IMG/VR virus record: IMGVR_UViG_3300017719_000004
Span: 18,644 to 82,643 of that record
Strand: one strand, 5' to 3'
Source of the DNA: a virus
DNA: 64,000 bases
The notes beneath the pieces were generated by a model. It saw only the letters and a list, made by a program, of their open reading frames with translations. It was not told where the DNA came from and searched no databases. Made by a program: the position numbers and the translations under genes. Positions 22,308 to 59,813 of the stretch are shown here, in pieces (the first letter of the stretch is position 1; each line of letters opens with the position of its first letter).

Positions 22308-22440
22308 TCGATTCTCTTTCATCAACTCCTAGTATATAGTAGATACAATAGAATGCCCCTGCGAGAGCAAGTGCTACCATAAAGATCACTGACCATACAG
22401 GATCGTTTACATTAGTATGTGGTTGTAATAGTAAATTCAT
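22300..22440 (-). CDS. 46-residue single-span membrane protein
   Basis: The ORF begins MNLLLQPHTNVNDPVW and has one clear transmembrane segment, about residues 16-37 (SVIFMVALALAGAFYCIYYI), and an acidic tail. The ATG overlaps the stop of the 679-residue virion protein gene (ATGA at 22440-22437). The function is unknown. It is the first of three overlapping small ORFs that lead into gp17. Confidence 0.55.
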   Translation of the reverse strand: MNLLLQPHTNVNDPVWSVIFMVALALAGAFYCIYYILGVDERESNG

Positions 22441-27970: not shown

Positions 27971-28767
27971 ACATCCTCTTGTCTAGTAGGACTGTATACT
28001 TTACCATCATCAAAGAAAGTAGTAGTCTCATTGAATCCAAAATCATCATCTGCATCCGCATCAATTGGATCAGGAGTGACAGTATACCTTACCTCGCGCT
28101 TGGCAGTTTGTGTATCAGTATCAGAGTAGTAATCCAATTGTACTTTCTTGATAAGTCCGTCTGTACTTTCTGCAATAGGACCGAATAGATATGTCTTAGC
28201 ACTAAAGTTTAGTGTATAAATCAGAACTCTTCTTGTAGAAAAATCCCCCTCATACTCATCAGTAAATGAAATATTTTCTAATATAATAGGGATATCTCTT
28301 TTTTCTCCAATTGAATTGATCAAGTCTACAGTAATATTAAATGATGGTTGGAAGAATGGAAGAATCTGCTCTACAATTTGTAAAGCATCGTCATTCAACT
28401 TTGTCATAATATTCAGTTCAAACCCAACATTATATGGAACTGGTAAAAATACTTTCTTTACCCGATCTTGATTATCAATAGCTTTAAATGTCTTTGTTAC
28501 GGAAGTTTTCCTACTCGGGTCATAAGAAAGACTTGACATCTCAAAAGACATTCTGGGTAGAGTAATAGCAGTTGCTTTTGCTAACTCTTGTTGTTGCTGT
28601 AACTTAGCAAGAAATTTAGACCTAGGACCATATCCTAAAGGAACTTTAATATCGCTAATAGTATTTCCGCCTTTGTCTTCTTTTTGAATGTGAATGTCGT
28701 TAAATAATGTTCCGAAAGACACAACTGTCTTGCGGAGAATTTCGTGATAAAAATAAGTGCCTAACAT
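27967..28767 (-). CDS. 15: gp15 tail completion and sheath stabiliser
   Basis: A 266-residue protein matching T4 gp15 (272). It has the conserved N-terminus MLGTYFYHEILRKTVVSFGT, FNDIHIQKEDKGG, the Arg/Ser block LGYGPRSKFLAKL, and ENISFTDEYEGDFSTRRVLI. gp15 caps the tail and docks it to the neck. Its ATG shares one base with the gp14 stop. Confidence 0.94.
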   Translation of the reverse strand: MLGTYFYHEILRKTVVSFGTLFNDIHIQKEDKGGNTISDIKVPLGYGPRSKFLAKLQQQQELAKATAITLPRMSFEMSSLSYDPSRKTSVTKTFKAIDNQDRVKKVFLPVPYNVGFELNIMTKLNDDALQIVEQILPFFQPSFNITVDLINSIGEKRDIPIILENISFTDEYEGDFSTRRVLIYTLNFSAKTYLFGPIAESTDGLIKKVQLDYYSDTDTQTAKREVRYTVTPDPIDADADDDFGFNETTTFFDDGKVYSPTRQEDV

Positions 28768-30197
28768 CAGAAGTTGCCAAAGGGATTACGCTCAGTGAAG
28801 TCAAGGATACCATCTGCTTCACTTTCAATTTCGTCATTGAAAGTAAATGTGCTTGTAGTATCAATTCCAGTATGATTTAGAATTTGATATCTAGCAGACG
28901 ATGCAGTTCCTGTAATAAACTCACCAGGGTAGAACACACCATTATTTATTGAGATTTCTAACTTTCGGTCAGTTACATTAAATGCTCTCACATATCCTTC
29001 AGTTCCAGACTCGGATCCGACTACTCTTTCGTTGAAGAAATATGTTCCAACTCCAAGAGAAAGAGGATCTCCAATCGTAATTAATGGAGCTTGTTCGTAC
29101 CCAGATCCAGCATTTGTTAGGAAGATTCTACTTAGACTATCCCCGTCTAAAATTGAGATAGCAGTAGCTTGTACCTGACCGGGTTTACTACCAACGGTTG
29201 CACCAGTAGTTCCGATAGCAACATTTGCCGGATGTTGAATACTAATTAACGGTGGACTTACATAATTTGTTCCAAGATCTGTAATACGGATTGAGGTAAT
29301 ACCGCTGTTTGTAAGAGATGCTGTTGCAGCTGCACCTACACCAGGACCACCAAATGTAAATGCCGGTGATTCTGTATATGCAAATCCGGGGTTTTGTAGG
29401 ACTACCTGATCAATAGAATATAAACCGGACCTTTCGGTTGTGAATGCAAAGGCACCTGCTCTAGATGAAGTAACACCAGCAGGAGAGGGTTCGATAGTGA
29501 CACTGGGTGCGCTAGTATAACCGTATCCATCATCGTTCAGGAAAATTTGTCCTAATGCTCCTTGACTAGCGAAGGAATCAACAACCGCTATGGCTGTTGA
29601 ACCAATGCCTGCCAAAACGACAGTACTGGTCTCACCTTCTTCCATCGCTCTCTCATCAAGACTAGATATTCCGGTATCAACATACTCATCTTCATAGCGA
29701 AACAGTTCGCATTGAAGTTCGTAGATATAATTTTTGCCTAGTTGATAGAATGGGTTTTCAAATTCTACATGTTTAATTTCAAATATTCTTTCTCCCAAAG
29801 GGAAATAAATTAAATCTCCTTCTTTAGGTCTCTCACCAAAAATAATATCTGTGCCAGCATTTTTGGCATTATGGGTTACAACAAATGGAGCAATAAAATC
29901 TTCATATCTTTCTCTGGAAACTGTGAGAGTAATTTCGTTTTGAAGATTAATGCCAAACTTGGACATGATATCACTACCTTTTGCATATCCCTCATAGTTA
30001 TTGAGATAAGCTTCTAAAATATATGCGTCATTAAATTTAGATGACTGAACTTCTCCGAGCACATCATCAGTGATAATCATTTTTCTTGGAATGTAATAAC
30101 AATCCAATCCGAACATTTTTAAGTGTTCATCAATAAGTTGTTGAACAAGGCTCTGCTCGTTTGGAGATCCTTGAAGAAAAAACGGATTTAGTGCCAT
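28767..30197 (-). CDS. 14: gp14 neck protein with C-terminal repeat insertion
   Basis: A 476-residue neck protein, much longer than T4 gp14 (256). Residues 1-190 are the gp14 core (MALNPFFLQGSPNEQSLVQQ, GLDCYYIPRKMI, then the GERPKEGDLIYFPLGERIFE block). Residues about 215-376 hold four Gly-Tyr repeats of the form G-x-G-Y-x3-5-P followed by alternating hydrophobics: DGYGYTSAPSVTI, PGFAYTESPAF, LGTNYVSPPLISI and AGSGYEQAPLITI. Residues about 377-476 (from GVGTYFFNERVVGSESGTEG to FTERNPFGNF) look like the end of the core. The repeat block therefore seems inserted. gp14 with gp13 forms the connector between portal and tail. Confidence 0.93.
   Translation of the reverse strand: MALNPFFLQGSPNEQSLVQQLIDEHLKMFGLDCYYIPRKMIITDDVLGEVQSSKFNDAYILEAYLNNYEGYAKGSDIMSKFGINLQNEITLTVSRERYEDFIAPFVVTHNAKNAGTDIIFGERPKEGDLIYFPLGERIFEIKHVEFENPFYQLGKNYIYELQCELFRYEDEYVDTGISSLDERAMEEGETSTVVLAGIGSTAIAVVDSFASQGALGQIFLNDDGYGYTSAPSVTIEPSPAGVTSSRAGAFAFTTERSGLYSIDQVVLQNPGFAYTESPAFTFGGPGVGAAATASLTNSGITSIRITDLGTNYVSPPLISIQHPANVAIGTTGATVGSKPGQVQATAISILDGDSLSRIFLTNAGSGYEQAPLITIGDPLSLGVGTYFFNERVVGSESGTEGYVRAFNVTDRKLEISINNGVFYPGEFITGTASSARYQILNHTGIDTTSTFTFNDEIESEADGILDFTERNPFGNF
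29070..29555 (-). repeat. Four Gly-Tyr repeats inside gp14
   Basis: Translated repeats begin at residues near 223, 269, 308 and 363 of gp14, spaced 39-55 residues apart. The shared core is Gly-x-Gly/Ala-Tyr-x3-5-Pro then a short strand. The same motif recurs in the 4046-, 2440- and 2260-residue proteins and in gp8. Confidence 0.6.
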
Positions 30198-31018
30198 TAC
30201 CCAATCAAATCAAGGGGTGGAAGTTCGTAGGTAGACAACATTCTATCTTCAATACGCTGCAATTCCATTACAGCATCTTCGTAAATTTGTCTGCCATTTA
30301 ATTCAATACCTCCAGGGAGTTTAACTCCTTGGAATTTAGTTAAGTTTGTACCCCACTGTTTCTTAACCAGTTGAGTAAAATACTTCTTTAAAAAAGAATC
30401 ATTGTATACGCCAGCATAATTTGCTGGGTCCATAATTCTTTGGCAGTCAATGATTATGTATGTACCTTCTGATACTGATCCCCAATCAACATCGAGATAC
30501 AAACGATTATTTCTTTTGTTATATCTAATCTGCTTGTTTGTTGAAAGTAAGAAATCAATATCTTCAATATATGTTTTAGTCATCGCATAACTGAGAAGAC
30601 CACTATATCCCAAATTAAAAGCTACATCATTTAAAAACAACTGATATTTAAAACTAAACATGTTGTTTGAGATAAAGCTAGAATCAAACAAAAATACTTT
30701 CTCAACTCCAAGGACCGAATCAGGTACACTCAGATAATTTGTGTTTTCCTCAAAGTCTCCAGATGTTGTAGTAGAAGTAGTAATACCAAGAGATTCGCCA
30801 GCACCTCTTGCTCTGCCTCTTTTGATGTCATCTTCTGAGACCTTATATTTGAGATAAACTCTTTCGACGCCATCAAAGTGACGCTCATAAAAAAGTTGCA
30901 GAGCATCATCTAATGCATCATCTACTTGCTCATCAGCTACATTTATTTCTAAGACGGGATATCCAAGTTGCCTTAAAGCGTAATCTTTTAGTCCGTCTCT
31001 AGTGGTTGGTTTTGCCAT
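30197..31018 (-). CDS. 13: gp13 neck protein
   Basis: A 273-residue head-completion/neck protein (T4 gp13 is 309). The N-terminus RDGLKDYALRQLGYPVLEIN, the acidic QVDDALDDALQLFYERHFDG and the C-terminal SFLKKYFTQLVKKQWGTNLT are the typical gp13 blocks. It binds the portal together with gp14. The ATG shares a base with the stop of the fibre-like gene. Confidence 0.94.
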   Translation of the reverse strand: MAKPTTRDGLKDYALRQLGYPVLEINVADEQVDDALDDALQLFYERHFDGVERVYLKYKVSEDDIKRGRARGAGESLGITTSTTTSGDFEENTNYLSVPDSVLGVEKVFLFDSSFISNNMFSFKYQLFLNDVAFNLGYSGLLSYAMTKTYIEDIDFLLSTNKQIRYNKRNNRLYLDVDWGSVSEGTYIIIDCQRIMDPANYAGVYNDSFLKKYFTQLVKKQWGTNLTKFQGVKLPGGIELNGRQIYEDAVMELQRIEDRMLSTYELPPLDLIG

Positions 31019-34000
31019 CAGAATGTACCTCCATCAACACTGTTAGACCAAATTGGAATGTTATTCTCATCTGTGGTTAGCATGTAATTGGAGGTTGTTA
31101 AGAATCCTACAGTGCTAAGACCACTAACCAGTCTTCCATCTGCTTCAAAGAACGCAACACCGTTAGGTCCGCTATATCCAATACCAGTTAATCCACCTTG
31201 ATCTGATCTGTAATAGAGACCGTCGCGGAATGTACCGTAACCGATTATGCTTAGATTATCTTGGACAGTTACCTGACCAGCAGCAGAATCAAGAACAAGT
31301 TCTCCAGTATTGGTATTTATTTTGGTTGAGGAAGAACCAGCACCAATTGTGACATCAGAGATCGTTGTTACACCAGTAACTCTAAAGTTGTTAGTGGTGA
31401 GAATGCCAGAGACATTGATGTTGATTGCTTCAATACCAGCAGAGCTGGTTACAATTCCTGTAAGAATTGTTCCTTGATCTACTGTCAGAGTGGAGTGGAT
31501 GTTTGCATTAGTAGCAACATCGATTGTTCCAGTCTGAGTTACGCCACGAATACTAGCACCAATTGCTAGTGTCTCGATCTTAATGCCGTTGTTATAGTAT
31601 AGAGTAACAGCACCATCAGCAGTAAAGTTGGCAAGAGTTTCGCCAGTGTACTTCTGAAGTTCTACCTGATTAGAACGGATTGCAAGGGTGCCAGTTCCAG
31701 AATCATCAATGTATGAATTGTCGCCATCATGATAGATGGAGAGATCATCATTATCACCGAAGTGTGCCTTTACATCATCCTTGAAGGAAACAATTCCAGT
31801 GAATACTGCGTTTGTGACAGCAATACCAGTAAGTTTTGCATCAAATGCATCAAGAGCTTCAGTATCAATTGTGGTAATCGTTGCAGCAGTACCGACAGTA
31901 TCTGTTACAGCAAGACCAGTAATGTTGACATCTTTAGCATCTAATGTCTCAATGTCAACCGTAGTGATGGTTGCGTAAGTACCGACCAGTGAAGTTACAA
32001 CACCAGCAGTGATCTTAGCGTCAACTGCGTCGATACTAAGATTGAAGTCAACTCTCTCAGCAAATGTAGATACGCCAGTTACATCGAGTCTCTCAAACTT
32101 AGCAGTGTCGAGGACATCAAGTCTCTGTCTAGGTGCAGCAGTGCCGATACCCAGCTTCTGATTAGCGTCAAGGCGCATGCCCTCAACATTATCAGTATTG
32201 AATCTGATAGTGCCGTTAGCACCTGAGTCATCCAGAGCGATAGAAGTATCGTTCTTCTGGAAAGAGTCAAGTTGGATAGTTGTCGCAGTCAGGATACCCA
32301 GGACATTGACATCACCAGTGATGTTGATTGAACCTGCACCAGCTGGATCAATATTAATATCACCAGATGTAGATTCAATATTATTTCCAGCAATCTGGAT
32401 GTTACCGAATGTACCACTTGTAGGAGTAACAGTGCTGCTGTTAGTTCCGTCAGTAATCTGAAGTGAAGAAAGTGCTTGGAGGCTAGTTACTTGTTGCGAG
32501 AACGATACTGTACCGTTTTCTTGATCAACGAAGAATGCATCTCCAACTCTGAAGTCTCCTCTCTGGTCAATACTGACGAATGATACATCACCGTTATTAA
32601 TTTCGGTAACTTCATTAGCTTGAATTGCTAAGTTAGGATCGTTAGAGAAGTCACCACCAGCACCAACATGATTGAAGTTGAGAGCAAACAGTCTCAGAGA
32701 TACGCCATCGCCATCAGCAATGACACCCTTCTGACCATACTCAATAGCACAACCAACGGAGCGCATGTCTGCACCAAACTGACTGTAATCAGCAAGGATA
32801 ACCTTGGTTGCAGTCCCGATACCACCACCCGCTTGAGTGATACGAATATCTTGATTGCGGATTACATTATCAGTGGTTGTAGTTACTCCACTAGCACCAT
32901 CAAAGTCAAGTAAAAGAACAGTGTCCTTGTCACCAGTGTGTGCAGCAGTAGGGGCAGTAAAGTTGGCAGTATATTTGGCAACTCCTCTTTCAATTCTGAA
33001 ATCGTCGATCCAACCAGTAACATTTTGACTTGCACCGTCGAAGTCGGCACCAATTACGATACCTTTAGATGCGCCATAGTTGGTGGTGTCAGAAGTCTTA
33101 ATGCCTCTCTGAGTACCATCAACAAACAATCTGGTGTCTGTACCGTCTCTAGCAAGTGCATAGTGCTTCCAGACTCCTGTAGCGATGCCTGCGCCAGATC
33201 CAGTAATAGCGGTGGTAGTACCAACCCGCATATCAACTTCACCAGCTGCCCGATACGCAAGACTAATACCTTCAGCATCTGTGCCATTATCTCTTAAATC
33301 AAAGAGAGTTGCGCTAGTCAGACCAGTTGTATTTGAATACGCCCAGAATTCAATTGTGAAATCTGTATTGGTGCCAAAACCAAGATCGCCGCTAGAAGGA
33401 GCACTGATAGAATCATTTGTTCCGTCAAGTGCTAAAGATGCAGTACCAAATTTCTTGACTGTAGTGTCTAGTTGAGCACCATCATTAAATGTAATAGCTT
33501 TAGCAGTTCTAGCTCCGAGAATTTCAAAACCAGTTTGCTTGCCAGTTACATTAAGATATGTTCCGTCGTAATCAGCAACAATAGCAGTTGCAATACCAGT
33601 TGTTCCGTCAGTATCAAAAACGGTAATTGTATTACCAACACCAACAGTTGTAATACCCGTCAGTCTCAGTCTAGTTTCACCAGCAGAAGATAAACCAACA
33701 GATCCAGATATGCCCTTAATACCTTCAGCAGCGAAGTATGAGAAGCAGTTCAGGTACTCAGAACGAGCACCGTTGGTCATGATCAGACCTTTACTGTTCG
33801 GTACAATGAAAGTAACTTCATTGAACAGGAATGCTGCCTCAAGTGATCCAACAGCTGCTTCAGAACCATCAATGTAAGCACCACCACCAGCTTTATATGA
33901 GGAAGGTGCAGAATCTGCAGAATTATAACCGTATGGGTCAGCAGTAGAAGTATTACTACCTTTGTTGAATACTGTTACGCGCTGAACATAAGGAGATCTG

Positions 34001-37000
34001 CTTGTAATCGCAATACCAGGAGCAAACTTAAACGCATAACCCTGATTGCCAGCAGTGTCAAAGAACATATCACCAATCGTGACATCTTCGACGACTGATC
34101 TGTCATTCATCAAGAAGCAGTCTTTCTGCTTAGTAGCAACGGTAGGACAAATCTTGGTAGCACGGAGACCAGCACCCTTAACTGTCAAACCAGCTGGAAC
34201 AGTTAGTGGAAAGACCTCTTCATAAACACCAGCAGCGATGAGAAGAATATCATTAGTACCAATGTTGGAGATCTGAGACAGAGCGTATGCAATCGTTCTG
34301 TATGGCCTTTCTTCAGTGCGTCCACGAGATGCATCACCGTCGTCAACACCGTTAGTAGAAACATACCATGTATCAAGCTTAGCATTGATTGTGGCAATAC
34401 CAATCTGTGCAGGTTCACGCCAGGTGATCGTGCCATCTGGATTGGTACTCAGCATGTGCTGAGTGTTCAGACCAACAACACCAGTGGAGTCATACAGAGA
34501 GGTAATGAAACCTGCCTGAACAAATGCAGAGGTTGCAATACCAACCGAGACAGTTGCATTCAGAATGTCCGCAACTTCAAAGTCAACTGTAGTGATAGTT
34601 GCGGCAGTACCAACAATATCAGTGACTGCTAATCCAGTAATATTTGTCTGTCTTGCATCCAGGGTCTCGATATCGACCGTGGTGATCGTAGCGTAGGTGC
34701 CAACCAGAGAGGTTACGATACCGGCAGTGATCTTAGCGTTAACGATATCACCTTCTGTGGCGTCAATCGTCGTAATAGTAGCAGCAGTACCGACAATATC
34801 GGTAACAGCTAAACCAGTAATATTTGTCTGTCTTGCATCGAGTACATCGATATCGACAGTTGTAATTGTCGCGTATGTACCAACTGTCGAATCAACAATC
34901 AGATCATCAACACGAGCAACGCCGTCGATGTAGATATCTCGCCACTCTTTAGTAGCACTACCAAGATCGAAGGTGTCATCATCGTCAGGAACGATGTCAG
35001 AGTCAACTTCACCAGTAAAGATGATGTTGTCTGTAGTAGAGTCACCAAGACCGATTGTGCCACCGTTAAAGGTTACATTACCAGTAAAGGTTGTAGCTCC
35101 ACCAACTCTGAGATCACCAGTAACCTCAACATCACCAATGGTGGCAGCAGTGCCAACCAAGCTTGTGATGATACCGGCAGTAATCTTGGCATTAACGATA
35201 TCACCTTCTGTTGCATCAATCGTTGTGATTGTTGCAGCAGTGCCGACAATATCAGTAACGGCAAGACCAGTGATGTTTACATCTTTGGCATCAAGAGTCT
35301 CAATGTCAACCGTTGTGATAGTTGCATAAGTACCAACCTGACTAGTAATAATACCAGCAGTGATCTTAGCATCGAGGATGTCAGCAGCATCAAGATGTGC
35401 TGTGCCATCAACATAAATGTCTTTCCACTCTCTATCAGTAGTACCAAGATCCAGAGTGTCATCGGCACTAGGAATAAATTTGAGGTTAGATTCCCAACCC
35501 TCTCTTGCCTGATCGTATATGAATTCTTTGTCAGTTGTTCCCTTAAGGATGATACCGCCGTTATCGGCTGTAGCATCAGCATGTCCACCAGTAGAACTGA
35601 ATCCAAGTTCAATGTTCTTGTCGGTAATCTGAACAACCGTACTCTGAACAAAACTTGTAGTTCCGTTGACTGTCAGATCACCAACAACAGTAAGAGCTCC
35701 ACCAACACGAACATCGTCTTGGAAGTTAGCATCTTGGAAGGTTACATATGTACCTGTCAGTGAGGTGATGATGCCTGTAGTAATCTTGGCATCAAGTGCA
35801 TCAAGATTAGCAAAATCGCCAACAGTGTATGTTAAACCATAACCAACAATAGATGTTACAACACCAGCAACAGTTTTAAGGGTGTTGATATCACCTTCAT
35901 TAGAGTCGAAGGTTGTGATCGTGGCATAGGTGCCAACCAGAGATGTGACTAAACCTGTGGTTACTTTAATATCTCTGAGATCAGCAATCTCAGTATCAAA
36001 GGTTGTAATCGTGGCATAGGTGCCGACCATACTGGTAACAACACCAGCAGTAATCTTAGCTGCCTCAATATCAGCATCAACAAAATCAACTCTAGTGATT
36101 GTTGCTGCAGTACCAACAGTGTCGGTAATAATACCTGACTGAATCTTAGCGTTGGTAATTGCAAAATCAGTTGCTAAACCAGCAGTGACTTTAATATCCT
36201 CAACACCGATATCATTAGCATCGATTTGCGGAACAGATGTTACGCCAGCGATTACTGTGTTACCAGTGCCTTTATCAACAATTACTACACCACCAACATC
36301 CAACAACCCAAAGGGTCGTGTGGTGCCGATACCGACATAACCAAGTTGGTTACCGTCGATCCAATTAATATTTTGATTACCAATTACGAGCTGGTTATCA
36401 CTATCTCCGATAGCAACATTTCGCTCATAACCGATGATGACATTGCCACTACCAAGAGTATCGTTACCAGCAGAGTAACCAATGGCAATGTTCTTACTAC
36501 CGTCTACACTGAAGAGAGTGTAAGGACCAATAGCAATGTTTCTTTGCTGCTGTCTGGTTCCTGTACCACCACTCAGGAAGCGACCATTCCTGCTGGTTAC
36601 GCTACCTGTAAGAGTCTGGAAACCAAACGGCATGGTGAATGTATCACCAACTTCGTAACCATCGCCAGGGGCCATGATTTCGATGTTAGTAATAAGACCA
36701 GTATTACCAGTCTGTAATCTAACTAAGAGTCCAACACCAGATCCACTGGTCTCGGTTACATCTTCTGTCTGATCATAATTTGCAACAGCAGTTTGATCAC
36801 CAACATTTACGCTGAGAGATACCCCATCAACAACAGGGAAAGTCTCACCATACATCGACTGGTTACCCAGAGCAATGTTCTCATCGTTGCCGCTAGAAGA
36901 TAAGGCAAAACCTACCTTATCACCAATCATCAAGTTCTTAGTACCTTGCAAGCGATAGCCTGCAAAGTTACCCATGACGATGTTAGATTCTAACTCGTCA

Positions 37001-37800: not shown

Positions 37801-38012
37801 TAGAAGACACCTCCGTCAATGATGGCAGCAGGGAAATTTTTTGTTGTTATAAACGAGTTGGAAGAAGATTCGTAAACTAGAATGCTTCCATCCTGTAGAT
37901 TTGATGCATCAACATCGGCAAGTAAAGTTAATCTTCCGCCAGAGCCGCCGCCGAGGGCACCGCTGGCAATAACTTTTACTTGATTCGATGTGCCGATTCG
38001 TAATGATGGCAT
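37800..38012 (-). CDS. 70-residue fibre-associated hypothetical protein
   Basis: A Gly/Ser/Ala-rich small protein (MPSLRIGTSNQVKVIASGAL) ending IIDGGVF. The C-terminal six residues closely match the end of the 2260-residue fibre-like protein (VDGGTF), whose ATG shares one base with this gene's stop. It may be a small tip or assembly partner. No domain is recognised. Confidence 0.6.
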   Translation of the reverse strand: MPSLRIGTSNQVKVIASGALGGGSGGRLTLLADVDASNLQDGSILVYESSSNSFITTKNFPAAIIDGGVF

Positions 38013-38350
38013 TACCTTGTTACTCCTGCTCTGACTAGGACCATTCCTTCGACGACCTTATATTTAAATCCGCCAGAGTCTTCAAGTGTCACATCATAAA
38101 CATATCGCCCTGGTTTAATGTCAACTGTTTCTGTTGAACCCAGTGAAATTTGGATTTGACCAACTTCGGGGTCAGTAACAGTAGACGCAAAAGATACAGC
38201 AGTAGAACTACCAGCCCACTTCCTCATTTGAGAAGTCGCTGTATAGTTCGTTAGGTTCAAATAAGTGCCTGTGTCGTTATCTCCTAGACTGAAACCGTGT
38301 TGAAAATCAACTCCAGAATCAACTTGAAGGTTAGCAATGTAAACTGCCAT
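38012..38350 (-). CDS. 112-residue hypothetical beta-rich virion protein
   Basis: A beta-rich protein (MAVYIANLQVDSGVDFQHGF, DTGTYLNLTNYTATSQMRKW, then GQIQISLGSTETVDIKPGRY and YDVTLEDSGGFKYKVVEGMV). The pattern resembles the small Ig-like or baseplate-upper-protein N-terminal domains found beside phage fibre genes. It overlaps the next gene by one base. An ACTAAATA element lies 28 bases upstream. Function is inferred from position only. Confidence 0.6.
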   Translation of the reverse strand: MAVYIANLQVDSGVDFQHGFSLGDNDTGTYLNLTNYTATSQMRKWAGSSTAVSFASTVTDPEVGQIQISLGSTETVDIKPGRYVYDVTLEDSGGFKYKVVEGMVLVRAGVTR

Positions 38351-38373
38351 TCTTTACATCACGGATTATCCTA

Positions 38374-46057: not shown

Positions 46058-46061
46058 CTTC

Positions 46062-47636: not shown

Positions 47637-47669
47637 TATTATGAACGGGCGGAAGGTCTAACTTTTCTG

Positions 47670-47677
47670 TATTTATA
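47670..47677 (-). promoter_or_regulatory. Late promoter TATAAATA before gp8
   Basis: An exact minus-strand TATAAATA overlaps the stop of the giant baseplate gene and lies 33 bases before the gp8 ATG. Confidence 0.65.
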
Positions 47678-50600: not shown

Positions 50601-53600
50601 AATTGGTTTTTGAACAATTCCATTAAGAGCGATGACCGTTTTTTCATCTCTCTTATCCATAGTAAATCTATGCTTGTTCCCAGCAGCGGTTCCTGGTTGG
50701 AAAGTAACAGCTATGCCAGATCTTGCATCAGTAAGATTGGTTGAGATAAAGAATTGATCATTGTTATTTTTAATGACAAAGACTGTGGATGGGAGAGATG
50801 TATGTCCATATCCAGTAACATATTGAAGAGCACTAGCAGCAACACCAACAATATTAGAATCTGGTTCATATGTAACTGGTTCTGCATTAGAGAAGAAATG
50901 CTTGAAACTAATAAGACCTGTTCCAAAATCAATTTGATCTGGGTTTTGTGGGTTTAAATCTCTTTCATAAATTGGTGTTCCTTCATATTTCAGATCGAAT
51001 GATCTAATGTTTCTATTATTGATTCCTAAGTAAGTATTTTGAGTAACATTTTCAAATACCTTGCCATAGTCAAATGAACCGATACCTGCAAGTGTTCCGT
51101 TTGGATCTGCGTCTTTATACAGAACTTCGTTGTAAGAATAGATGCTTACAATTCCTGTTACTCCAGAGTCTGGATAGAATTCCAGATTTACATTGCTTCC
51201 ACTAAATTCTGCTCCAAATGTGCCGATACCAGTAGTAGTGCCAATAGCTGCGATTGGTTGCTGTGAAATATAAGTATCAGCTTTTTCTGGATCTGACAAT
51301 ACATAAATTTGATGTAGTGTCTGAGTTGATCCGTAAGAAACATGTACGGTTGATTTGAATGATAAGTTAGTAAAGCTACTGACACCAACAACTGTAGAAA
51401 TTCCAGTAGTAGCAGATGCACCAACAATAACTCTAGCTGTTCTCTCAGTACCTTCTGGAGTAAATTTGAGGTTGAGGTGTCTTATTGAAGTTGTACCAAG
51501 TCCAACATTCTCAAATGATACAAATTTACTTCTAACTGCAAGGGTAGAACTCTCATTGTGAATATAGTCAATTTTAACAACTCCACTTTCAATAGACGAA
51601 GTAAATGTGCCCATGAAGTTGGGACTTGAAATACCACCAAGACTTTGGCGAGTATTAAACGATGCAAGTTCTGTTAGGTAAGTATCTGTACCATCATGTT
51701 GGAGAGCTAACTCGACATAATCAATACTATTTGCAGCAGTATCTACTACAACAAAATGACCAATACCACCAACAAATGTAGTAGTACTAAATCCGATAAT
51801 TTGTTCGGTAGACCCAGATCCTACAAGAACATTAGCAGATGAGTTTACAACATTACCAGTATTGGTAGATCCGATTCCCACATCAGCAGAAAAACCTTGC
51901 TGGAATGTCTTAATATCGAAATCAGTATCAAAAGTTTCATAAGGTTTAATTCTTATTTCAGTAAGATCGTCATCAACATTGTAAAATGCGAAGAACTCTG
52001 CATATCCAGTCGAAAGACCAACATTGTTATTATTGTTGACATGTGACTTTTGTAAAAGATAAGTATTCTCATCAATTGTGACTAGAATAACCTCATTGAA
52101 TTGATATTGATTATTCAGAGGATTTTCTGCTTGATGAGTCGTTTGAATAAGATATCTTGAGAAATTTCTTCCAGCAACAACTCCAGCAATAGTTCTATCA
52201 TCACTTAAATCGTTAGATTCGTTACTAACGAAGTTTGGACTGATATCATCATGAATAAGAACTCTATTAGTTTTATTAAGAATGAAATCTGCAAGTCTTG
52301 TAGATTTAAGCTCTAGGAACTTAGATGTATTGTTGTTAGCATTAACATCTCTAGAGAGATCAAAATTATAAATTCCATCAACTCTCAATGGATCACTGAT
52401 AAAGTCGAGAACAAATCCACCAGCATCATCAGCAGGTTGTATTGATTCTCCAGCATCACCAACAGATAAAATTTGAGTATTTGCAAAATTCTTCATCCCA
52501 GATGGATGAACAATATCATTTACATAAGTAATAATTTCGTCAAATGTCTTATCACTTTCGATAGCATAAGACATATTCTGATAATAATCATTATCAGGCA
52601 AGAATTGATTACTATCACCAATTAATCCAATATTATCAGACCATCCAACATTAGTATCAATGGTGGAATCGATATCATAATATCCATCAAATACTGTAAC
52701 TGAGTCTACTACTGCACGATCACCGCTATTAGTACCTACAAGATTATCGTCAGCCTCTAAAGGTAAAGAACCTTCAATGACCATAATCCCAGTATTTGTA
52801 TCAATAGATCTTAAAATTAGATCAGTTTCATTATCGTTGTTTCTTCTTAAAGGTTCGTTCTTAGCAAATGGTGAGAAAGATATTGTAGTTGAGAATTTTG
52901 CAAGGTCACCTGCTTTAACAATTTGACCAAAACCAGGAACTACAGTTGCTCCAGTACCAACATTTGTAGTTAATCCAGTATACTTAAATGATACTTCTCG
53001 TGGATTTACTGCTGAGTTGTAGGTATCAATTGTAAAATTAGTGAACAAATAGTCGCCAGAGTTAAATCCATCTCCATCATTGTTAAATTCAATTCCTTCA
53101 AGATATACTTCTTCTCCTGGAACAAAAGGTTCTTGAACATATCCAAGAATTGGAGTAGTAATTTTACAGGTAACAACACCAACATCAGAGAAAGCTTCAA
53201 TAATAGAAATACCATTACTGTTTCTTAGTGGAGCAATGCCATAAGCATTTGCAGTCAAACCTCTAGGTTGAACAACAACCTCGGCACTGTTTACAGCGGA
53301 ATCACTAAGTTCACAAGTAATCAAACCATTATCAACAATAATTCCGGTAGTTTTATCATAAAGGACAAGGGAAGGTGCATTGATGTAAGATTTCCCACCA
53401 AAAGTAACCTCTACATCGAGTACTCTATTTGCGTTCTTAACCTGTACAGATCTGGGTAAGAATGCATCTGGTTTTAAAGTATTGTCTGAGGGATATCCAA
53501 AAACATCAGTGGGGACTGTTACATCTTTCAACAGATTGATGGTGGGTCCGATCAGATTAAGATTTCCACTAATTCCACTATTCCCAATAGATGCAACTGC

Positions 53601-56600
53601 AGGAATTTTATTGTATCCAAATCCATTATTAATGATGCGAACTTTTGCAATTCCACCAGTTGCTCCAATAGATGTTGTAGTGTAGTAAAGCTCTTCACAG
53701 TCTTCTGCTGAGTATTTTGTTTGCTCTGCTTCAGTTGCAAGGATCGCAGTAAAAGTAGTTGACCCTACACCGGTAATACTATATGATCCGGTATATGTAC
53801 TGTCAATAAAACTAATTTTAGTAAATCCAACAACCTCAGTATCAGAGGTTGACATATATCCACCCTTTTCAAATCCATAATATAACTCAGTTTTAATATT
53901 GTCATTATAATTAATTGTCAATTTGGACATATCTTCTGCAACTGTTGTTCCTAGACCAACAGTATTGACTCCAACAACTTCTAAACTAGAAGTATCTCCT
54001 GTTCCAACAAATTCATTAAAGAAGTTGCTGTCATAAAAAATCTTTAATTTACCGTCAAGTAAAGATGCGTCGTTTAAATTGAATACTATATTGTTATTTT
54101 TAGTTACTTTAATTGGTGGGTTGATTGGATTTATAGTTTGTCCAGTAGATCCAACACCAGTTACACTGACAACTTCAGGAGGATCGAGAAATAGTTGAGA
54201 TCTAGAATCTGATAATTGGAATGTATCATTATCAATTTTCAAGACAAAATATGTTCTTTGGAACAAATTGTCAGGAAGGCTATTTTCATCACCAAAAGGA
54301 CCATAAGCTAAAACTTTAAATCCAGTTTCAAGACCATGCTTATTAGCGGTAAAGATGCTAGTAACCGTATTGATTCCTGTTGTAGCAATTTCTATCGGAT
54401 TTAAAACTAAGTTTCCATCTAGTAGTTTTACTGTAACATCTTCTGCCTGGAGAATACCAGTTGTAATTCCGGGTTTTACTACAAGAGATACCCTATCGTT
54501 AATGCTTAAGTCATGAGGATTAGATGTCTCTACAGTTAACTCGCTTCTTTCAATATTAGCTATCTGTTGTGTGTAATTCGTTTGGAAATAATAGTTTGAG
54601 CTATCGTCTCCAGTCGTTGTAAAGAACAACTCAGAACCATCAGGAGAAGTTTTAAGACCAATTGTGTTGATAGTCTTGCGAACTACATAAAGACTTGCTG
54701 GAAGGGCACTGGGAGCAATGTATGGATCGATCGAAGCAGTTGCATTAATAACACTATTTCCATTTGTATCAAAGGTGACTAAATCATTGGTTTTTAGATC
54801 ATGCCCCTCAATAAAGATGGATTGAGAAAGAATTGATCTTGTTTTAGTTACTCCATTTAATGAAACATTAACAGATGTTGAAAAACCTACAGTAGTGCCA
54901 ACTCCAACTGATTCTTTTGGATTAAAATAGTATAAATCTTGGAATTTAGAATCAATAGTAAATGATTCTGAAAGTGGTAGAGTAAATTTACTTGTAAAAT
55001 AAGTAACGGCTGCTCCAACAGAAGCTGTAGCAAATCCAGCGGATCTTTCTACTCTAACAATTTTTTCAGATGGGAAAGCATTCAAAATACGAACAGTTTC
55101 TGTTCCAATACCAATAGAATCTCCAGCAGAAACATTTGGAGGAACAAGACTAACCTTCAAGTCTGTAATGATACCAGTGTACCCGTCTTGATCTAGGGTT
55201 GCGTTAAATGTTTGTACTGAAATTTTGTGATAAGTCTCAAGTCCTTTAACATAAGTGGAGATACCACTAACTCTAATAACATGATTGTCACTAAACTCGT
55301 GATATGGAGAAACTTTAAATTCTGCGGTTTCTCTACCTATTGTAAAAGGTACATTTAAGAAAGATACAGTATTACTACTTACCTGAGTGATATCAGATCC
55401 AAAAATTCTACTGACTTCCGCAGATAAACCACCCCCAGTTGTTTCACTATCGTCAAAAACGATATTATCATTGACACTGTAACCAGATCCTTTAAAATTG
55501 ATCTGTATATCAGTAATTGAACCTACTCCAAGATTGTCTGGAACAGATTCTTGATTATTTTCTTTATATGGTTGGAAAACATAATCATATGATTTGCCAT
55601 CGCCAAACATATTGTATGGAAAAGTATTTCTGACTAGTTTTGAAGATTCAAAGTCAAAATTGGTTTGATCGATGACCAATCCCCTAACTGTATTTTCGGG
55701 AATTGCAAAACTGCGGAAAGTGTCTCCAATAAAGTATGGAAATACTGGCTTATTATTAATATCTACGGTTGCAAAGTAAGCATAAACTCCTGCAGGAAAA
55801 TCTGGAGTTTTTGTGAACTTACCATTATGTTCATCTAAATCGCCAGATCCAATATAGGAATAATCTTCAACTAAAGATCCATATGGAAATTCTGATATTG
55901 GAGGTCTATTTGTAATGTTGGTTGAGACAATATCGTAACTAGATTCTTGCCTCTTAACATCAGACTGAATATTATTAGGGTCAGTTAATCCATATGGACC
56001 GTATATTGGGTTACCATCATACGCCCATCCAATAATTGAAGAATGACTGGAACCATCATCTCCAAAGAAGTCTCTAATAGAATTTCCGTATCCAATATAA
56101 TTTACAGCAACACCTCCCGTGAAGGGAGAGAGATAATCCAATTCAGTATCATTCAGACCAAATGCCTTATTAATTACCAAAGGTCTTAATTGAGCTTCAA
56201 GTTTAAGACTTGAACCTGGGTTAACGATACTGGTGGTTGTTGTACTAGCAGCGTATCCAACTCCACCGGAAATAACCTTTACTTCAGTAATAGATCCATT
56301 TTCTACTACTGATCTAAGAATAGCTCCATTTGCTTCTGAACTGGCACTAGAAACTACAATATCTGGTGGACCAGAATATCCAGATCCCCCAGATTGGACA
56401 AATGCTGAGATAATCCTACCATTGGAAAAAATGAGTCCAATTTGACCCAATTGACCGCTCTCAATTGAAATTGTTGGTGGGTTTCGGAAATCAACAACAG
56501 TAGATCCATAATTTCTACCTCTAGAATATAAAGGTGCGTCAACTACTTGACCTCTAACAATTGGAGTAGCTACAAGATCTTGTTCTTTCTGATCTTCTGT

Positions 56601-59600
56601 GAGTACTTTTACAGTACATTCAATTTTAGGATAAGTAAATCTTTGAAATCCTGATCCCTGAGAATCTAGGAATGCATGGATTTTTTTATTGTAATTATCA
56701 CCAGATGGTTTTGTATCCCCCTTATTGCCAACTTCTGCTAATCTGAATGCATCGTCACTGATTTTTAATACTTGATACTGCTTAGTAGAACTAAGTCCTG
56801 TAATAGTAGTAGTATCATATGAATAATTTACAACATCTCCATCCCTAAATCCATGATCTTCAAAGCTCACATAATCTCTAAAAGTATTAATACCTGTTGG
56901 ATTCACTAAAATATTTCTGCTGGCATATCCACTACCGGCATTTTCTATACTAATTCTACCGATAGTGGTTTTCTTTTCAAAAGTTCTGAAAATGTGTTGA
57001 CCAGTATTAGATCCAGCTGCGTTCTCAGAAATTGATATGGTATTAATACCAGTAACAGAATCTTGTTTTGTATAATGTAAGTAGATGGATCTATCACCAG
57101 AAGATCTTACATAGTAGTCTTGACCACTCATTAGGGTCAATTCTTCATTTGAAGCTCCGGTAGTTGCGATACCTAAATTATTGTTTCCATTGTTATTGTA
57201 AACAATTCTACTACCAGATACTAAGTTATGATCTGAAGTGAAAGTGAACCTATCGTTCACTGCTTCTACAGCACCACCAGAAAGGGTGCTGACGCCACTA
57301 AAAGATATCTCCCGGTATCTTTCCTCAAGTAGTGCTCTTCCGAATGCTCCAGTGCCATTACCGCCAAAGATCTCAACACTAACAACTTTATCAATATCGA
57401 ATTCTACAGGGTCAACATAGACAGAAGTGACTGTTCCAGCAAGACTGACAATAGATCCAGCAGTATTAGCTACACTGACTAATGCGTCGGAGATAGTAAC
57501 ATTAGGAGGATTTTGGACATCATATCCAACACCACCATTAAGAACATTGATTTGTTTTAATGGACCATAGTATATTTGATTTTCACCTTTGTAATTTAAT
57601 ACTTCAAGACCATTGACAAGCATACCTGTGTTGCCGTCAGCAGTAATTTCTGATGTAGTTGCTGATTCTTTACCACTTCTAAGTTCTTGTTCTAGAGTAA
57701 ATCTACGAATAGGTCTGGATGGGAAAATTTCCCGCTTACCCTGACTAGCAAGAATGAAATCATGTGTTCCAGCAATACCAGTAGGATTGAAATATTCTGG
57801 AAGATTTGCTTTGATGAAAGCTCTAGATGTATATAATTGAATCCTATTAGCAGGACTTAAAACTTTTACAAAATATCCCTTTTGCTCAAGACCAAGAATT
57901 CCGATAGTTCCTTCGGATGGAACATATACAACTTCTTCGCCAGTTTTAAATGGAACATTGTCTGTAAACGCTAGAACAGTATATGCATCTTCTGTGCTAT
58001 CATATCCATCAAAGTTTCCTAGACCAACGGTAGGGTTAACTAATGTAGATCTTACTTTATCTACAGTAATCAAATAACTAGGTAAAGAGCTAGATGCTAC
58101 ATAACCTTCTCTTTTACCAGTGCTAGACTCATTTTCCGTCTCAATATAAGTATTATTAATGTCCGATAGTAATTGGTTTTGACCACCTCTAATTGGTACA
58201 ATACTAGAATTTGCTTTTTTCTGTACTCTTCTTAAATCATAAGAAAGTGACGAATCTAAAGTAGGAATACTACCACTAAGAGTGACAGTATTTGTAGATG
58301 TATTTACAGACGATATAGTTAAAGATGTGGCAGCTACTAACTCAGAATTTCTGTTAACAATATCAACAATGTCACCCTTTCGGATACTACTCTTATCAAT
58401 GTTTCCATCTAATACAAAACCAGATCCAGAAAAGGCAGAAACTTCATATCTTGTAGATGTATTATAAATCCAAGAATTAAAGAAGATTTCTTCATATCCT
58501 CTATTAATCTCTGAGTTCTCAATCAATCTCCCCAGGTTTCTAATTCTAATAGAAGAGTCTTGATCTAGATTTTTAAGATCTGCGTTAGATAAGAACTTGC
58601 TAAGAACACCAGTAACCTTAAATTCTACTCTCTTAGAAGAATCGCCATTCTCAAACCCATAAACAATGTTAGGAGCAGAGATATCTGTGTTGTTTTTGAT
58701 CTCTGTCGATACTAATGGAGTAACATCAAAAAACTGATTAATACTTTTAGTATCGTAGTTGTATATGGTTGATCCAATCGATAAAGTTCCAACGCTAGAA
58801 AATCCAATTGTGGAGTCAACAGTAATTACAGATGCACCAATCCCAATATCACCAATATTACGAGTTTTACCAGGAACGACAAATGTGCCATCAGTTAATG
58901 ATCTCTCATCAAAACCAGTGAATAGAGAGATTTTGAAGTAATTATCTCTGAGGTTACTAACTTCTGAAATCGGACCAGAAGCTATATTAACTTTGTCATT
59001 TGTGGGATCATTATCTTGATATAATGTTTCGCCAACCAAATTTGCGGGATTACCGGAAATCAACTCAAGAGAAAGTGTTTTTCTTCTTACATAATTTGCA
59101 TATGATGGTTTGATCAGATACTTTTCAAGATCATTGATTTTTGGATCGATTCCAAATAAAGCTTTGAATAGAATCTTAAATGAATCTTCTGTACCCTTCG
59201 ATTCATAGAGACTTCTTGCCTCTTTGATAAAATTATTAATATCCAGCTGTGGTGATAGGTTTACTCCCTCTAATCCAGGAGTATACATCGCCTTCAATTT
59301 TTTATAGAACTCTTTTAAGAAAAGAGCACTAACATTTTGAACAATTGATCCTGCAGTATGTGAGGAAGCAACTGTTGATTCCCATACTAGATCTTCATTA
59401 TTATTAGGTGCAATATAGGAACTAATCCCGCTGAACCCTCTCGTACATCCAGTAAAACTAGTTTGAGTCTTGTCTGCATAAGTTATAATCTCACTATCAA
59501 TCTTAATAAGACCATGTTTTGCGGGATACCCATCCGTACTTGTTACCGAGATGGTATCATCACTATCTGAGATATCACTAGCAAGATTTGTACCTCCTTT

Positions 59601-59813
59601 GATGACATCTACAGTAAGATTATCAACCTTAATGTATGCGTCAATATTCTCAGCAATATCTGCCGGACCACCTTGATAGTCTTGGGAGATATAATACTGT
59701 TTTAGAAACTCGGCAAATTTTGGGTTTTCTGAGACCGCAAATTCGGGTATAGATTCAGAAACAATCTGATAAGTCTTTACTCTTGGGCTTAGCGGGGAGT
59801 TTGTCTCTATCAT
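47673..59813 (-). CDS. 4046-residue giant baseplate protein in the gp7 position
   Basis: One uninterrupted 12.1-kb frame between gp6 and gp8, where T4 has gp7 (1032 residues). The N-terminal 260 residues are wedge-like (PEFAVSENPKFAEFLKQYYI, SLYESKGTEDSFKILFKALF with GIDP). The remainder is a string of beta-rich modules: an IKIDSEIITYADKTQTSFTG-type domain, about ten Gly-Tyr repeats (NGGVGYDVQNPP, SGGSGYSGPPD, SGGVGYAAS and others), and a YHYH-like domain at about 1260-1360 (GWAYDGNPIYGPYG, then LDEHNGKFTKTPDFPAGVYA). The C-terminal 600 residues include LLIFINGVIQEPGINYTFDG. No Shine-Dalgarno stronger than GTAGG is seen. Call as baseplate protein is by synteny. Confidence 0.75.
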   Translation of the reverse strand: MIETNSPLSPRVKTYQIVSESIPEFAVSENPKFAEFLKQYYISQDYQGGPADIAENIDAYIKVDNLTVDVIKGGTNLASDISDSDDTISVTSTDGYPAKHGLIKIDSEIITYADKTQTSFTGCTRGFSGISSYIAPNNNEDLVWESTVASSHTAGSIVQNVSALFLKEFYKKLKAMYTPGLEGVNLSPQLDINNFIKEARSLYESKGTEDSFKILFKALFGIDPKINDLEKYLIKPSYANYVRRKTLSLELISGNPANLVGETLYQDNDPTNDKVNIASGPISEVSNLRDNYFKISLFTGFDERSLTDGTFVVPGKTRNIGDIGIGASVITVDSTIGFSSVGTLSIGSTIYNYDTKSINQFFDVTPLVSTEIKNNTDISAPNIVYGFENGDSSKRVEFKVTGVLSKFLSNADLKNLDQDSSIRIRNLGRLIENSEINRGYEEIFFNSWIYNTSTRYEVSAFSGSGFVLDGNIDKSSIRKGDIVDIVNRNSELVAATSLTISSVNTSTNTVTLSGSIPTLDSSLSYDLRRVQKKANSSIVPIRGGQNQLLSDINNTYIETENESSTGKREGYVASSSLPSYLITVDKVRSTLVNPTVGLGNFDGYDSTEDAYTVLAFTDNVPFKTGEEVVYVPSEGTIGILGLEQKGYFVKVLSPANRIQLYTSRAFIKANLPEYFNPTGIAGTHDFILASQGKREIFPSRPIRRFTLEQELRSGKESATTSEITADGNTGMLVNGLEVLNYKGENQIYYGPLKQINVLNGGVGYDVQNPPNVTISDALVSVANTAGSIVSLAGTVTSVYVDPVEFDIDKVVSVEIFGGNGTGAFGRALLEERYREISFSGVSTLSGGAVEAVNDRFTFTSDHNLVSGSRIVYNNNGNNNLGIATTGASNEELTLMSGQDYYVRSSGDRSIYLHYTKQDSVTGINTISISENAAGSNTGQHIFRTFEKKTTIGRISIENAGSGYASRNILVNPTGINTFRDYVSFEDHGFRDGDVVNYSYDTTTITGLSSTKQYQVLKISDDAFRLAEVGNKGDTKPSGDNYNKKIHAFLDSQGSGFQRFTYPKIECTVKVLTEDQKEQDLVATPIVRGQVVDAPLYSRGRNYGSTVVDFRNPPTISIESGQLGQIGLIFSNGRIISAFVQSGGSGYSGPPDIVVSSASSEANGAILRSVVENGSITEVKVISGGVGYAASTTTTSIVNPGSSLKLEAQLRPLVINKAFGLNDTELDYLSPFTGGVAVNYIGYGNSIRDFFGDDGSSHSSIIGWAYDGNPIYGPYGLTDPNNIQSDVKRQESSYDIVSTNITNRPPISEFPYGSLVEDYSYIGSGDLDEHNGKFTKTPDFPAGVYAYFATVDINNKPVFPYFIGDTFRSFAIPENTVRGLVIDQTNFDFESSKLVRNTFPYNMFGDGKSYDYVFQPYKENNQESVPDNLGVGSITDIQINFKGSGYSVNDNIVFDDSETTGGGLSAEVSRIFGSDITQVSSNTVSFLNVPFTIGRETAEFKVSPYHEFSDNHVIRVSGISTYVKGLETYHKISVQTFNATLDQDGYTGIITDLKVSLVPPNVSAGDSIGIGTETVRILNAFPSEKIVRVERSAGFATASVGAAVTYFTSKFTLPLSESFTIDSKFQDLYYFNPKESVGVGTTVGFSTSVNVSLNGVTKTRSILSQSIFIEGHDLKTNDLVTFDTNGNSVINATASIDPYIAPSALPASLYVVRKTINTIGLKTSPDGSELFFTTTGDDSSNYYFQTNYTQQIANIERSELTVETSNPHDLSINDRVSLVVKPGITTGILQAEDVTVKLLDGNLVLNPIEIATTGINTVTSIFTANKHGLETGFKVLAYGPFGDENSLPDNLFQRTYFVLKIDNDTFQLSDSRSQLFLDPPEVVSVTGVGSTGQTINPINPPIKVTKNNNIVFNLNDASLLDGKLKIFYDSNFFNEFVGTGDTSSLEVVGVNTVGLGTTVAEDMSKLTINYNDNIKTELYYGFEKGGYMSTSDTEVVGFTKISFIDSTYTGSYSITGVGSTTFTAILATEAEQTKYSAEDCEELYYTTTSIGATGGIAKVRIINNGFGYNKIPAVASIGNSGISGNLNLIGPTINLLKDVTVPTDVFGYPSDNTLKPDAFLPRSVQVKNANRVLDVEVTFGGKSYINAPSLVLYDKTTGIIVDNGLITCELSDSAVNSAEVVVQPRGLTANAYGIAPLRNSNGISIIEAFSDVGVVTCKITTPILGYVQEPFVPGEEVYLEGIEFNNDGDGFNSGDYLFTNFTIDTYNSAVNPREVSFKYTGLTTNVGTGATVVPGFGQIVKAGDLAKFSTTISFSPFAKNEPLRRNNDNETDLILRSIDTNTGIMVIEGSLPLEADDNLVGTNSGDRAVVDSVTVFDGYYDIDSTIDTNVGWSDNIGLIGDSNQFLPDNDYYQNMSYAIESDKTFDEIITYVNDIVHPSGMKNFANTQILSVGDAGESIQPADDAGGFVLDFISDPLRVDGIYNFDLSRDVNANNNTSKFLELKSTRLADFILNKTNRVLIHDDISPNFVSNESNDLSDDRTIAGVVAGRNFSRYLIQTTHQAENPLNNQYQFNEVILVTIDENTYLLQKSHVNNNNNVGLSTGYAEFFAFYNVDDDLTEIRIKPYETFDTDFDIKTFQQGFSADVGIGSTNTGNVVNSSANVLVGSGSTEQIIGFSTTTFVGGIGHFVVVDTAANSIDYVELALQHDGTDTYLTELASFNTRQSLGGISSPNFMGTFTSSIESGVVKIDYIHNESSTLAVRSKFVSFENVGLGTTSIRHLNLKFTPEGTERTARVIVGASATTGISTVVGVSSFTNLSFKSTVHVSYGSTQTLHQIYVLSDPEKADTYISQQPIAAIGTTTGIGTFGAEFSGSNVNLEFYPDSGVTGIVSIYSYNEVLYKDADPNGTLAGIGSFDYGKVFENVTQNTYLGINNRNIRSFDLKYEGTPIYERDLNPQNPDQIDFGTGLISFKHFFSNAEPVTYEPDSNIVGVAASALQYVTGYGHTSLPSTVFVIKNNNDQFFISTNLTDARSGIAVTFQPGTAAGNKHRFTMDKRDEKTVIALNGIVQKPISYTQIIYDLDVAVNGIVTSFALSGLSTITSGDLLKLGDEYSIVRTVGFATQPTGPITGIGTWSIVEVERGAVGSAATDHAAGSIARIHRGSFQILNSQIHFTEAPLGGDLGVIDPQNLPYPRASFGGRTYLRNDYRTNELFDDFSDKFDGLENTFPLTATGAAVTGIGSTGGNGVLFINGIFQAPFGENNEGVSNFKIIEDPVSTAASVQFSGITSVGFTDLIIDIDDINQNQLPRGGVIVSIASTPGNGYAPFIGADVRLDVGAGGTITGIVGISTTGPSVSLSNAVYDKRTGIMTVTTSANHGLLIEDQVKLTGIAFTCGAAHAGVTTTIFPEHNDPFSVAGIISATQFKVQVGPSTIPHTYVSGGTAAQFFPLTFGSGYNSNLGTIGIAVTCATGTGATVTAVVGAGGSLVFSVTGPGTNYTTNSTVITPEPNGENLPIVGVSRIGLGNTTLTGVGCSVTVQIAGVSTATGIGSTLFEVSEFKFSKKGYGFKRGDKFTVTGLSTDPYAGDKFRPFELEVVDVFTDQVSSWQFGNIDYLDNIRQFQDGNQKRFLLYYQQSLVSFEIDRGDRDSKEIDLSAVLLIFINGVIQEPGINYTFDGGSVIEFTSAPTTEDNVVIFFYRGTIGQDSFLFDVNEVIKVGDNLRLRKSAQIELNQVNQSTANLAQSANRIVKRIDSAATVETAFYQGVGISNDNYKPMDWIKQKKDIIIDGSLVSKARDSIEAQISPIANVIGVLTTTDSFVYVDSTALFRDTDNLLTGSFSLAYIAEVGFGTTAVYGINYENITGIEPLVANVQGFVGVVTGIGTCPGIGTDLALLIQFDAQDYVNDGNSTAGLSTGQPFKLYGTGINTVSAAVTSIDTHDTDIVGISTFNGDNIYYVHAVSTRNGGRVGVITANIASYTNVSDFVGVGSTSVPYAHFTWGKFSNVSRDQTQPVNANIKGIDFDPELSNYPIVQRRGVGLRGTGGLPKIL

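Follow-up and report, generated by a model that had tools for sequence, protein, structure and literature searches.

The locus studied here raises the question of whether a short motif, Gly-x-Gly-Tyr (G-x-G-Y), that recurs in several structural proteins of one virus marks a single homologous domain, and whether that domain moves between genes. The window, that is, the whole 64-kb stretch analyzed, is part of an 82.6-kb virus record (IMGVR_UViG_3300017719_000004), and both its gene order and its profile matches correspond to a T4-like myovirus. It encodes gp6, gp7 (4046 residues), gp8, a 2440-residue DUF4815 protein, a 2260-residue baseplate wedge protein, gp13, gp14 and gp15; gp6, gp7, gp8, gp13 and gp14 are annotated in comparable order and size in P-SSM2, S-SM2 and ACG-2014f. 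The original prediction, made from the sequence of the window, had spread the motif over five of these proteins. We find that it is the core of a small homologous unit that is clear in gp14, gp8 and gp7, with the 2440- and 2260-residue proteins backed more weakly, by profile comparison.

An iterative hidden Markov model (HMM) begun from nine copies yielded a unit of 45-46 positions with a consensus near SNGSITSIRITNGGSGYTSPPTVTISGPGGTGAGATAVA. Each unit consists of a beta-hairpin, a G-x-G-Y-x-x-x-P turn that contains the motif as its core, and a short strand. The pooled HMM retrieved ten window copies, all in gp14, gp8 or gp7, at E-values of 1.6e-13 to 4.6e-4; the best reversed open reading frame (ORF) reached 0.72 and, with the previous version of the unit model, the best shuffled ORF reached 0.12. 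These E-values hold partly by construction because the models include the window's own copies, and PHROGs and HMM-HMM comparison provided the independent tests of homology. A thinned 63-copy profile (A4) matched the whole contig 13 times at E up to 10, all of them in gp14, gp8 or gp7 and nine of them by construction, since A4 contains nine window rows. The two-unit profile (A6) contains three window rows, which makes its three best matches expected by construction, but not its match in the 2260-residue protein. As a plain pattern, G.[GNA]Y occurred 28 times in the five proteins compared to a shuffled mean of 7.8 (none of 500 shuffles was as high), an excess confined to gp14, gp8 and gp7 and absent from the 2440- and 2260-residue proteins. 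The copies and the parts of gp14 around them are listed below (iE, independent E-value with the unit HMM; A3, alignment of the gp7 family).

29679-30191, minus strand: gp14, T4-like neck core (residues 3-173), by PF11649 and a phmmer match to T4 gp14
29427-29567, minus strand: gp14 unit 1 (residues 211-257), iE 6.8e-13
29313-29417, minus strand: gp14 unit 2 (residues 261-295), iE 2.2e-9
29184-29312, minus strand: gp14 unit 3 (residues 296-338), iE 1.5e-10
29007-29138, minus strand: gp14 unit 4 (residues 354-397), iE 1.6e-13
28866-29045, minus strand: gp14, C-terminal part of a predicted beta-barrel (residues about 385-444), as we infer from the AlphaFold2 model and VIA-align
46848-46979, minus strand: gp8 unit 1 (residues 220-263), iE 9.8e-5
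46725-46853, minus strand: gp8 unit 2 (residues 262-304), iE 3.6e-5
57447-57566, minus strand: gp7 unit (residues 750-789), iE 8.6e-7
56919-56966, minus strand: gp7 weak half unit (about 950-965), A4 E = 0.0045, larger HMM 2.3
56430-56561, minus strand: gp7 divergent unit (about 1085-1128), A3; hhalign aligns the gp14 array to 1087-1193 at 94.6%
56298-56426, minus strand: gp7 unit (residues 1130-1172), iE 5.9e-10
56169-56300, minus strand: gp7 unit (residues 1172-1215), iE 4.8e-6
55425-55523, minus strand: gp7 unit (about 1431-1463), A4 E = 1.3e-4, larger HMM only 0.25
53574-53660, minus strand: gp7 unit (about 2052-2080), iE 4.6e-4, A4 5e-4
53355-53423, minus strand: gp7 weak unit (about 2131-2153), A4 E = 0.010, inside the hhalign stretch 2046-2156 (79.9%)
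49119-49508, minus strand: gp7 C-terminal candidate units (3436-3565), hhalign 41.1% and 64.1%, missed by the unit HMM
40193-40486, minus strand: 2440-residue protein, two divergent units (about 1858-1955), hhalign and PHROGs
36622-36777, minus strand: 2260-residue protein, divergent unit (residues 342-393), A6 E = 0.0019, hhalign under 1%, missed by the single-unit profile A4

The four copies proposed for gp14 were all recovered, at residues 211-397, as were those in gp8 (two units at 46725-46979). Profile search gives seven units in gp7, to which the family alignment and profile-profile comparison add more; the proposed gp7 sites near 57520, 56370, 56260, 55480 and 53610 were borne out, the one near 53380 weakly so, those near 49460 and 49120 are candidates from profile-profile comparison, and the one near 49850 was unsupported by any search. 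The surplus of about 220 residues over T4 gp14 (476 versus 256 residues) does consist mostly of repeats, with the units spanning 187 of the 220.

The case for homology is carried by direct comparison of the arrays. By hhalign, the gp7 array aligned to gp14 at 97.7% and to gp8 at 96.6%, and gp8 to gp14 at 93.9%, whereas seven control proteins reached 4.5% at most; the proposal of one homologous module in neck and baseplate proteins is thereby upheld. In the 2440-residue protein, the gp8 array aligned to residues 1864-1923 at 77.9% and the gp14 and gp7 arrays pointed there too, at 12.9% and 18.5%, and PHROGs gave its units E = 2.7e-4. The gp14 array matched the gp7 family of PHROGs at 2.4e-7 and the gp8 family at 3.3e-5, and also families annotated as tail fiber (7.1e-11) and baseplate hub/lysozyme (5e-6). 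The unit-bearing families are 460 (gp14), 2885 (gp7), 438 (gp8), 701, 4406, 19630 and 708. They likewise hold units inside full-length phage proteins, but they are whole-protein clusters in which the module itself is not described. The HMM-HMM scores with clean controls, the reversed controls without significant matches, and the conservation of the G, Y and P positions and of a similar unit length in unrelated proteins make it highly improbable that these proteins merely converged on Gly-rich beta sequence, even though Gly-rich composition would fit convergence and models built on single families weigh on its side. With those models the true copies of other proteins were the top foreign matches, but their E-values of 0.003-0.8 did not stand out from those of the best shuffled matches (0.008-0.037), and the gp14-only model missed the gp8 units. 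HMMs seeded from a single protein lacked the power to prove cross-protein homology, and the expectation that an HMM would retrieve copies across the proteins held for the pooled model but not, at significance, for single-family models.

No named family was known for the motif, and none was found: Pfam matched the 63 single units with four chance families in single rows and with no immunoglobulin (Ig) model, Big, I-set and FN3 included, and the only NCBIfam row at unit-bearing regions had E 0.2. Plasmids held no match to the gp14 array at E 0.01. Among the papers listed by open-access literature searches on the motif strings, cyanophage repeats and Ig-like domains, none names the module in its title, which does not imply its absence from print. 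In the libraries searched, this small protein domain has no entry.

Close relatives of gp14 differ in whether they carry it. The gp14 of P-RSM4 (310 residues) has no unit and that of S-CAM8 (390 residues) has two, in an extra C-terminal stretch; the two proteins are 72% identical over 310 aligned residues and differ by about 80 residues and the two units. By eye, the four units of the window sit elsewhere relative to the shared C-terminal region than those of S-CAM8. The gp14 proteins of T4 (256 residues) and HTVC008M (290 residues) showed no unit at domain E up to 1, nor did the retrieved T4 and HTVC008M stretches at 0.05; the end of T4 gp14 resembles half a unit by eye, but without a score this was not claimed. 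Searches that started from the gp14 of the window, from its alignment and from the gp14 of P-RSM4, Sf-CH1b and HTVC008M, and that also took in reference phages and the flanks of gp8 and gp7 loci, matched 407 gp14 ORFs (397 complete). Among the 287 unique complete ORFs, which are not independent of one another, 98 had no unit, 65 had two, 116 had four, six had six and two had five, an even count in 285. The unit cut-off hides weak units, as in ACG-2014f gp14 with two clear and two weak stretches. S-SSM7 gp14 carries six units, and S-CAM9 gp14, incomplete at its start and outside the 287, carries eight. The S-SSM7 protein (762 residues; L173, 29704-31992) also has a further long insert within its unit array that looks lectin-like by eye.

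We also scanned bacterial and archaeal genomes for the exact consensus DNA pattern, for which about one chance match is estimated at uniform base composition. At least 117 stretches matched, and all 117 carry units by HMM, at least one per locus being expected by construction because the loci were chosen by the pattern. They contain 460 units in 124 ORFs, with none in reversed ORFs, and 113 of the 117 loci have two or more units within one ORF. The median unit spacing was 39 residues in the first 80 loci. From the 84 unit-bearing ORFs of those loci, 46 of the 54 with 1050 residues or less were surveyed with Pfam, which matched 11 to SusD_RagB, three to a lambda-like tail tube, three to T4 gp8, two to DUF3383, two to a minor capsid protein, two to phage cement and one to a tail sheath; other carriers match several enzyme and surface families. 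In single cases checked for position, the units lie inside the matched domain: the 154-position tail-tube domain is stretched over 241 and 235 residues in two proteins (L542 and L597) with a pair inside, and in a SusD protein (L545) a pair lies within the SusD_RagB domain. Pfam found no Ig model in two tail-tube and two SusD carriers. One carrier (L538) has a Big_7 match at 1293-1349, away from its units (237-1181), and one carrier has a Big_9 match that may lie at or away from its units. The unit is therefore not phage-specific, since bacterial surface proteins and phage-type tail proteins also carry it.

The counts indicate that the folding unit is likely the pair rather than the single motif. 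The cellular ORFs have an even count in 102 of 124 cases and exactly two units in 71. Two observations tell against strict pairing: the count is odd in 22 of the 124, many ORFs being cut by locus ends (40 of the 84 from the first 80 loci touch one), and gp7 has three consecutive units at residues 1085-1215. Because of these three in a row, pairing is a strong tendency and no law.

Structure prediction with AlphaFold2 gave a predicted local distance difference test (pLDDT) score of about 78-91 for gp14 residues 191-440, except 321-340, and 85-95 for gp7 residues about 1120-1199. The strand order per unit, a hairpin and then a short strand, was identical in the two models. The gp14 model suggests a barrel whose first strands lie at about 29598-29639 and which the unit array seems to interrupt. 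VIA-align matches to this model extend over about residues 187-444 but align just 62-74 of them (Z 4.8-6.2), and the translation-factor barrels among the matches were taken only as a hint of a barrel. A viral structure library matched gp14 and phage structural proteins with low template modeling (TM) scores; these are expected because the gp14 model has a poor core, and they were not used as fold evidence. By eye, the C-terminal region of gp14 (28866-29045) contains a GE-x-I-x-G-x-x-S-S/G-A phrase that recurs in the 2440-residue protein and may be a second shared module.

Sequence searches of the PDB returned chains of the T4 gp14 core and, weakly, the tail-spike Dpo31 of the Cobetia phage Carin1 (PDB 28lx, 28mg and 8ck1), and nothing closer for the units. 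Dpo31 was matched by the profiles of the gp14 family (A2, E 0.20), the gp7 family (A3, 0.21) and the mostly cellular pair (A6, 0.079), and no other chain was matched by two or more of the four profiles used. All matches fall within residues 440-512, inside D3* (residues 434-536), which is described as an Ig-like domain protruding from the beta-helix (PMC13317679). Like the units, D3* has two G-x-G-Y stretches in about 100 residues and is inserted in a host fold of a marine phage protein; unlike them, it belongs to a beta-helix depolymerase rather than to neck or wedge proteins. Searched back at E up to 10, D3* matched 129 phage records: Carin1, one more Cobetia phage and 127 named as Synechococcus, Prochlorococcus, cyano- or marine phages, virion genes included, with a best foreign E of 3e-3 and most of those listed at 4 to 6.

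Several results count against an Ig-like assignment. The Dpo31 E-values are only 0.08-0.21, an unrelated chain stood above it in one search (0.17), and the single-unit profile A4 gave chance-level PDB rows without Dpo31. Of the five gp7 models, four scored 43.4 or less and just one, at 67.9, was confident; the neck core of the gp14 model was poor, and a Foldseek search of the PDB with the gp7 model gave nothing under E 0.9. The best VIA-align rows of the gp7 model are Ig-like, but with Z of 4.6 at most they may reflect just a common arrangement. Taken with the Dpo31 matches, the models still make an Ig-like fold of the units likely. Ig-like domains of phage virions (Big_1, Big_2, I-set and FN3) are described as optional in tail, baseplate and capsid proteins and sometimes lie within a core, as in the YSD1 tail tube (PMC9022992). 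The units share with them that they are optional additions, sometimes inside a core, but differ in matching no Pfam Ig model, in having two similar halves and in often forming tandem arrays. The module appears to be an uncatalogued form of a known kind, the promiscuous Ig-like domains found in virion and surface proteins.

Whether the module moves was addressed with the 46 gp14 proteins that have exactly four detected units. In these, 177 of 184 copies best matched the same position in another gp14 and none was nearer to a copy in its own protein than to its best same-position copy, indicating that the gp14 copies of the window are old and vertically inherited. In gp7, 85 of 98 copies had another gp7 copy as best match; only two gp8 proteins were available, which makes them little informative. 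Over longer times the module has entered different genes. The clearest case is the gp14 of locus L061, from the window's own clade, which is identical to that of L025 at 440 of 478 aligned positions apart from a 428-residue insert between units 3 and 4. The insert contains units and a further domain, and its closest matches are a 675-residue baseplate wedge protein of S-H9-2 (55% over 316 residues), which by position and phrog_232 we read as gp53-like, a 1411-residue S-SCSM1 virion protein (51%) and S-RIM8 gp7 (34%). The similarity to S-H9-2 and S-SCSM1 starts at the unit. Alone, the unit part of the insert is about equally near S-CAM8 gp7 (1.5e-9) and gp14 proteins (5e-9), so no single donor gene is singled out. 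The domain of about 200 residues after the units (L061, 5549-6832) is common to L061 gp14, the S-H9-2 wedge protein, the S-SCSM1 virion protein and S-RIM8 gp7. By sequence comparison, the module is part of blocks common to different virion genes. Between S-CAM8 and Sf-CH1b, gp14 identity is 38% in the core but rises to 75% in the module and is 65% downstream of it; the module and its downstream part are far closer than the core, pointing to an exchange of this half of the gene.

The original prediction had suggested a mobile domain that copies between virion genes. That the domain entered different genes over evolution agrees with the L061 insert, the empty and occupied gp14 proteins and the cellular tail-tube pairs. 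A domain that is still copying itself among the virion genes of this phage would be consistent with the kinship of the L061 insert to baseplate-type proteins in an otherwise little-changed gp14, and with at least ten changes of unit count on a quick gp14-core tree of 77 rows with long branches flagged (shuffled mean, 27). The position-wise matches of the 184 copies contradict such recent activity, which we consider very unlikely. Mobility is thus partly supported, on the evolutionary scale but not as a recent event for the gp14 repeats of the window.

As to what the module does, we lean towards an accessory Ig-like surface domain, built as a pair, that is added to virion proteins and perhaps binds glycans. 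Two consecutive units would form one domain of about 80 residues, most likely with an Ig-like fold, added to gp14, gp7, gp8 and, in more divergent form, the 2440- and 2260-residue proteins without replacing their cores. In relatives, pairs have been gained or lost, and larger blocks with pairs are common to gp14 and other virion genes. The domain would be displayed on the virion surface for accessory interactions, most plausibly by binding weakly to glycans of the host surface or matrix and so aiding adsorption. Homology, the marked preference for even counts, the occupied and empty forms of similar gp14 proteins and the placement within other folds are observed directly, whereas the Ig-like fold of these copies, their surface exposure and glycan binding are inferred. 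Glycan contact is our first hypothesis because SusD proteins and an exopolysaccharide depolymerase contain units, and by this analogy the units perhaps bind glycans; it is weakened in that the glycan link of D3* itself consists of DALI Z scores of 2.8-2.9 and its authors' speculation, as described (PMC13317679). Ig-like domains of known families are reported to be optional on phage tails, and some mutants without one to infect less efficiently (PMC9022992).

The units might instead be spacers or assembly elements that enlarge and stabilize the neck and baseplate or link virion proteins, with no outside binding. Although 98 of the 287 gp14 relatives manage without a unit, as P-RSM4 does next to S-CAM8, and SusD and other non-virion proteins carry them, this explanation would account for their presence in several proteins of one tail machine, the strong conservation of key gp14 positions and the many copies in gp7. 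We judge it unlikely, and prefer the accessory surface domain.

The protein identities used here rest on the following matches. The gp14 gene (28767-30197, minus strand; 476 residues) encodes a T4 gp14 neck protein by PF11649 (E = 1.8e-32, residues 3-173) and by phmmer to PDB T4 gp14 (1.3e-28). Its neighbors fit the placement between gp13 and gp15, with matches to phrog_211 (head-tail adaptor Ad2) and phrog_227 (tail sheath stabilizer). The 4046-residue protein (47673-59813) lies between gp6 and gp8 and matches phrog_2885 over residues 10-3452 (2904.7 bits), as a gp7 baseplate wedge protein, and gp7 is annotated at the equivalent place in P-SSM2 and S-SM2. Soon after its three-unit stretch it has a YHYH domain (PF14240, 1.7e-23) at residues 1254-1353. 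The 2260-residue protein (31018-37800) has a LamG-like domain (PF13385) at residues 1459-1603 and, by eye, many repeats of a VGTYATITT-like phrase. Adjoining the baseplate genes, a gene at 62348-63001 matches the phage ferredoxin family phrog_3704 (8.1e-107), and between the terminase and neck genes a 679-residue ORF (22437-24476) has no PHROG match at E 0.01.

We propose tentatively, and with less assurance than its role as an accessory surface domain, that prokaryotic surface and virion proteins share the two-unit G-x-G-Y block as a general plug-in domain, as yet without a name. The block would sit in loops of folds unrelated to one another (those of neck, wedge, tail-tube, sheath, SusD and tail-spike proteins) and, in cyanophages, mark the edges of larger cassettes that virion genes, for instance those of gp14, the gp53-like wedge protein and gp7, exchange with one another. 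Most of the surplus of this gp14 over that of T4 would be explained by the units, which may also account in part for the extra length of other cyanophage structural proteins. They provide a name-able domain for annotating many unlabeled virion and surface proteins. The gp14 proteins of P-RSM4 and S-CAM8 form a natural comparison with and without the module, which makes the function of an optional virion domain directly testable.

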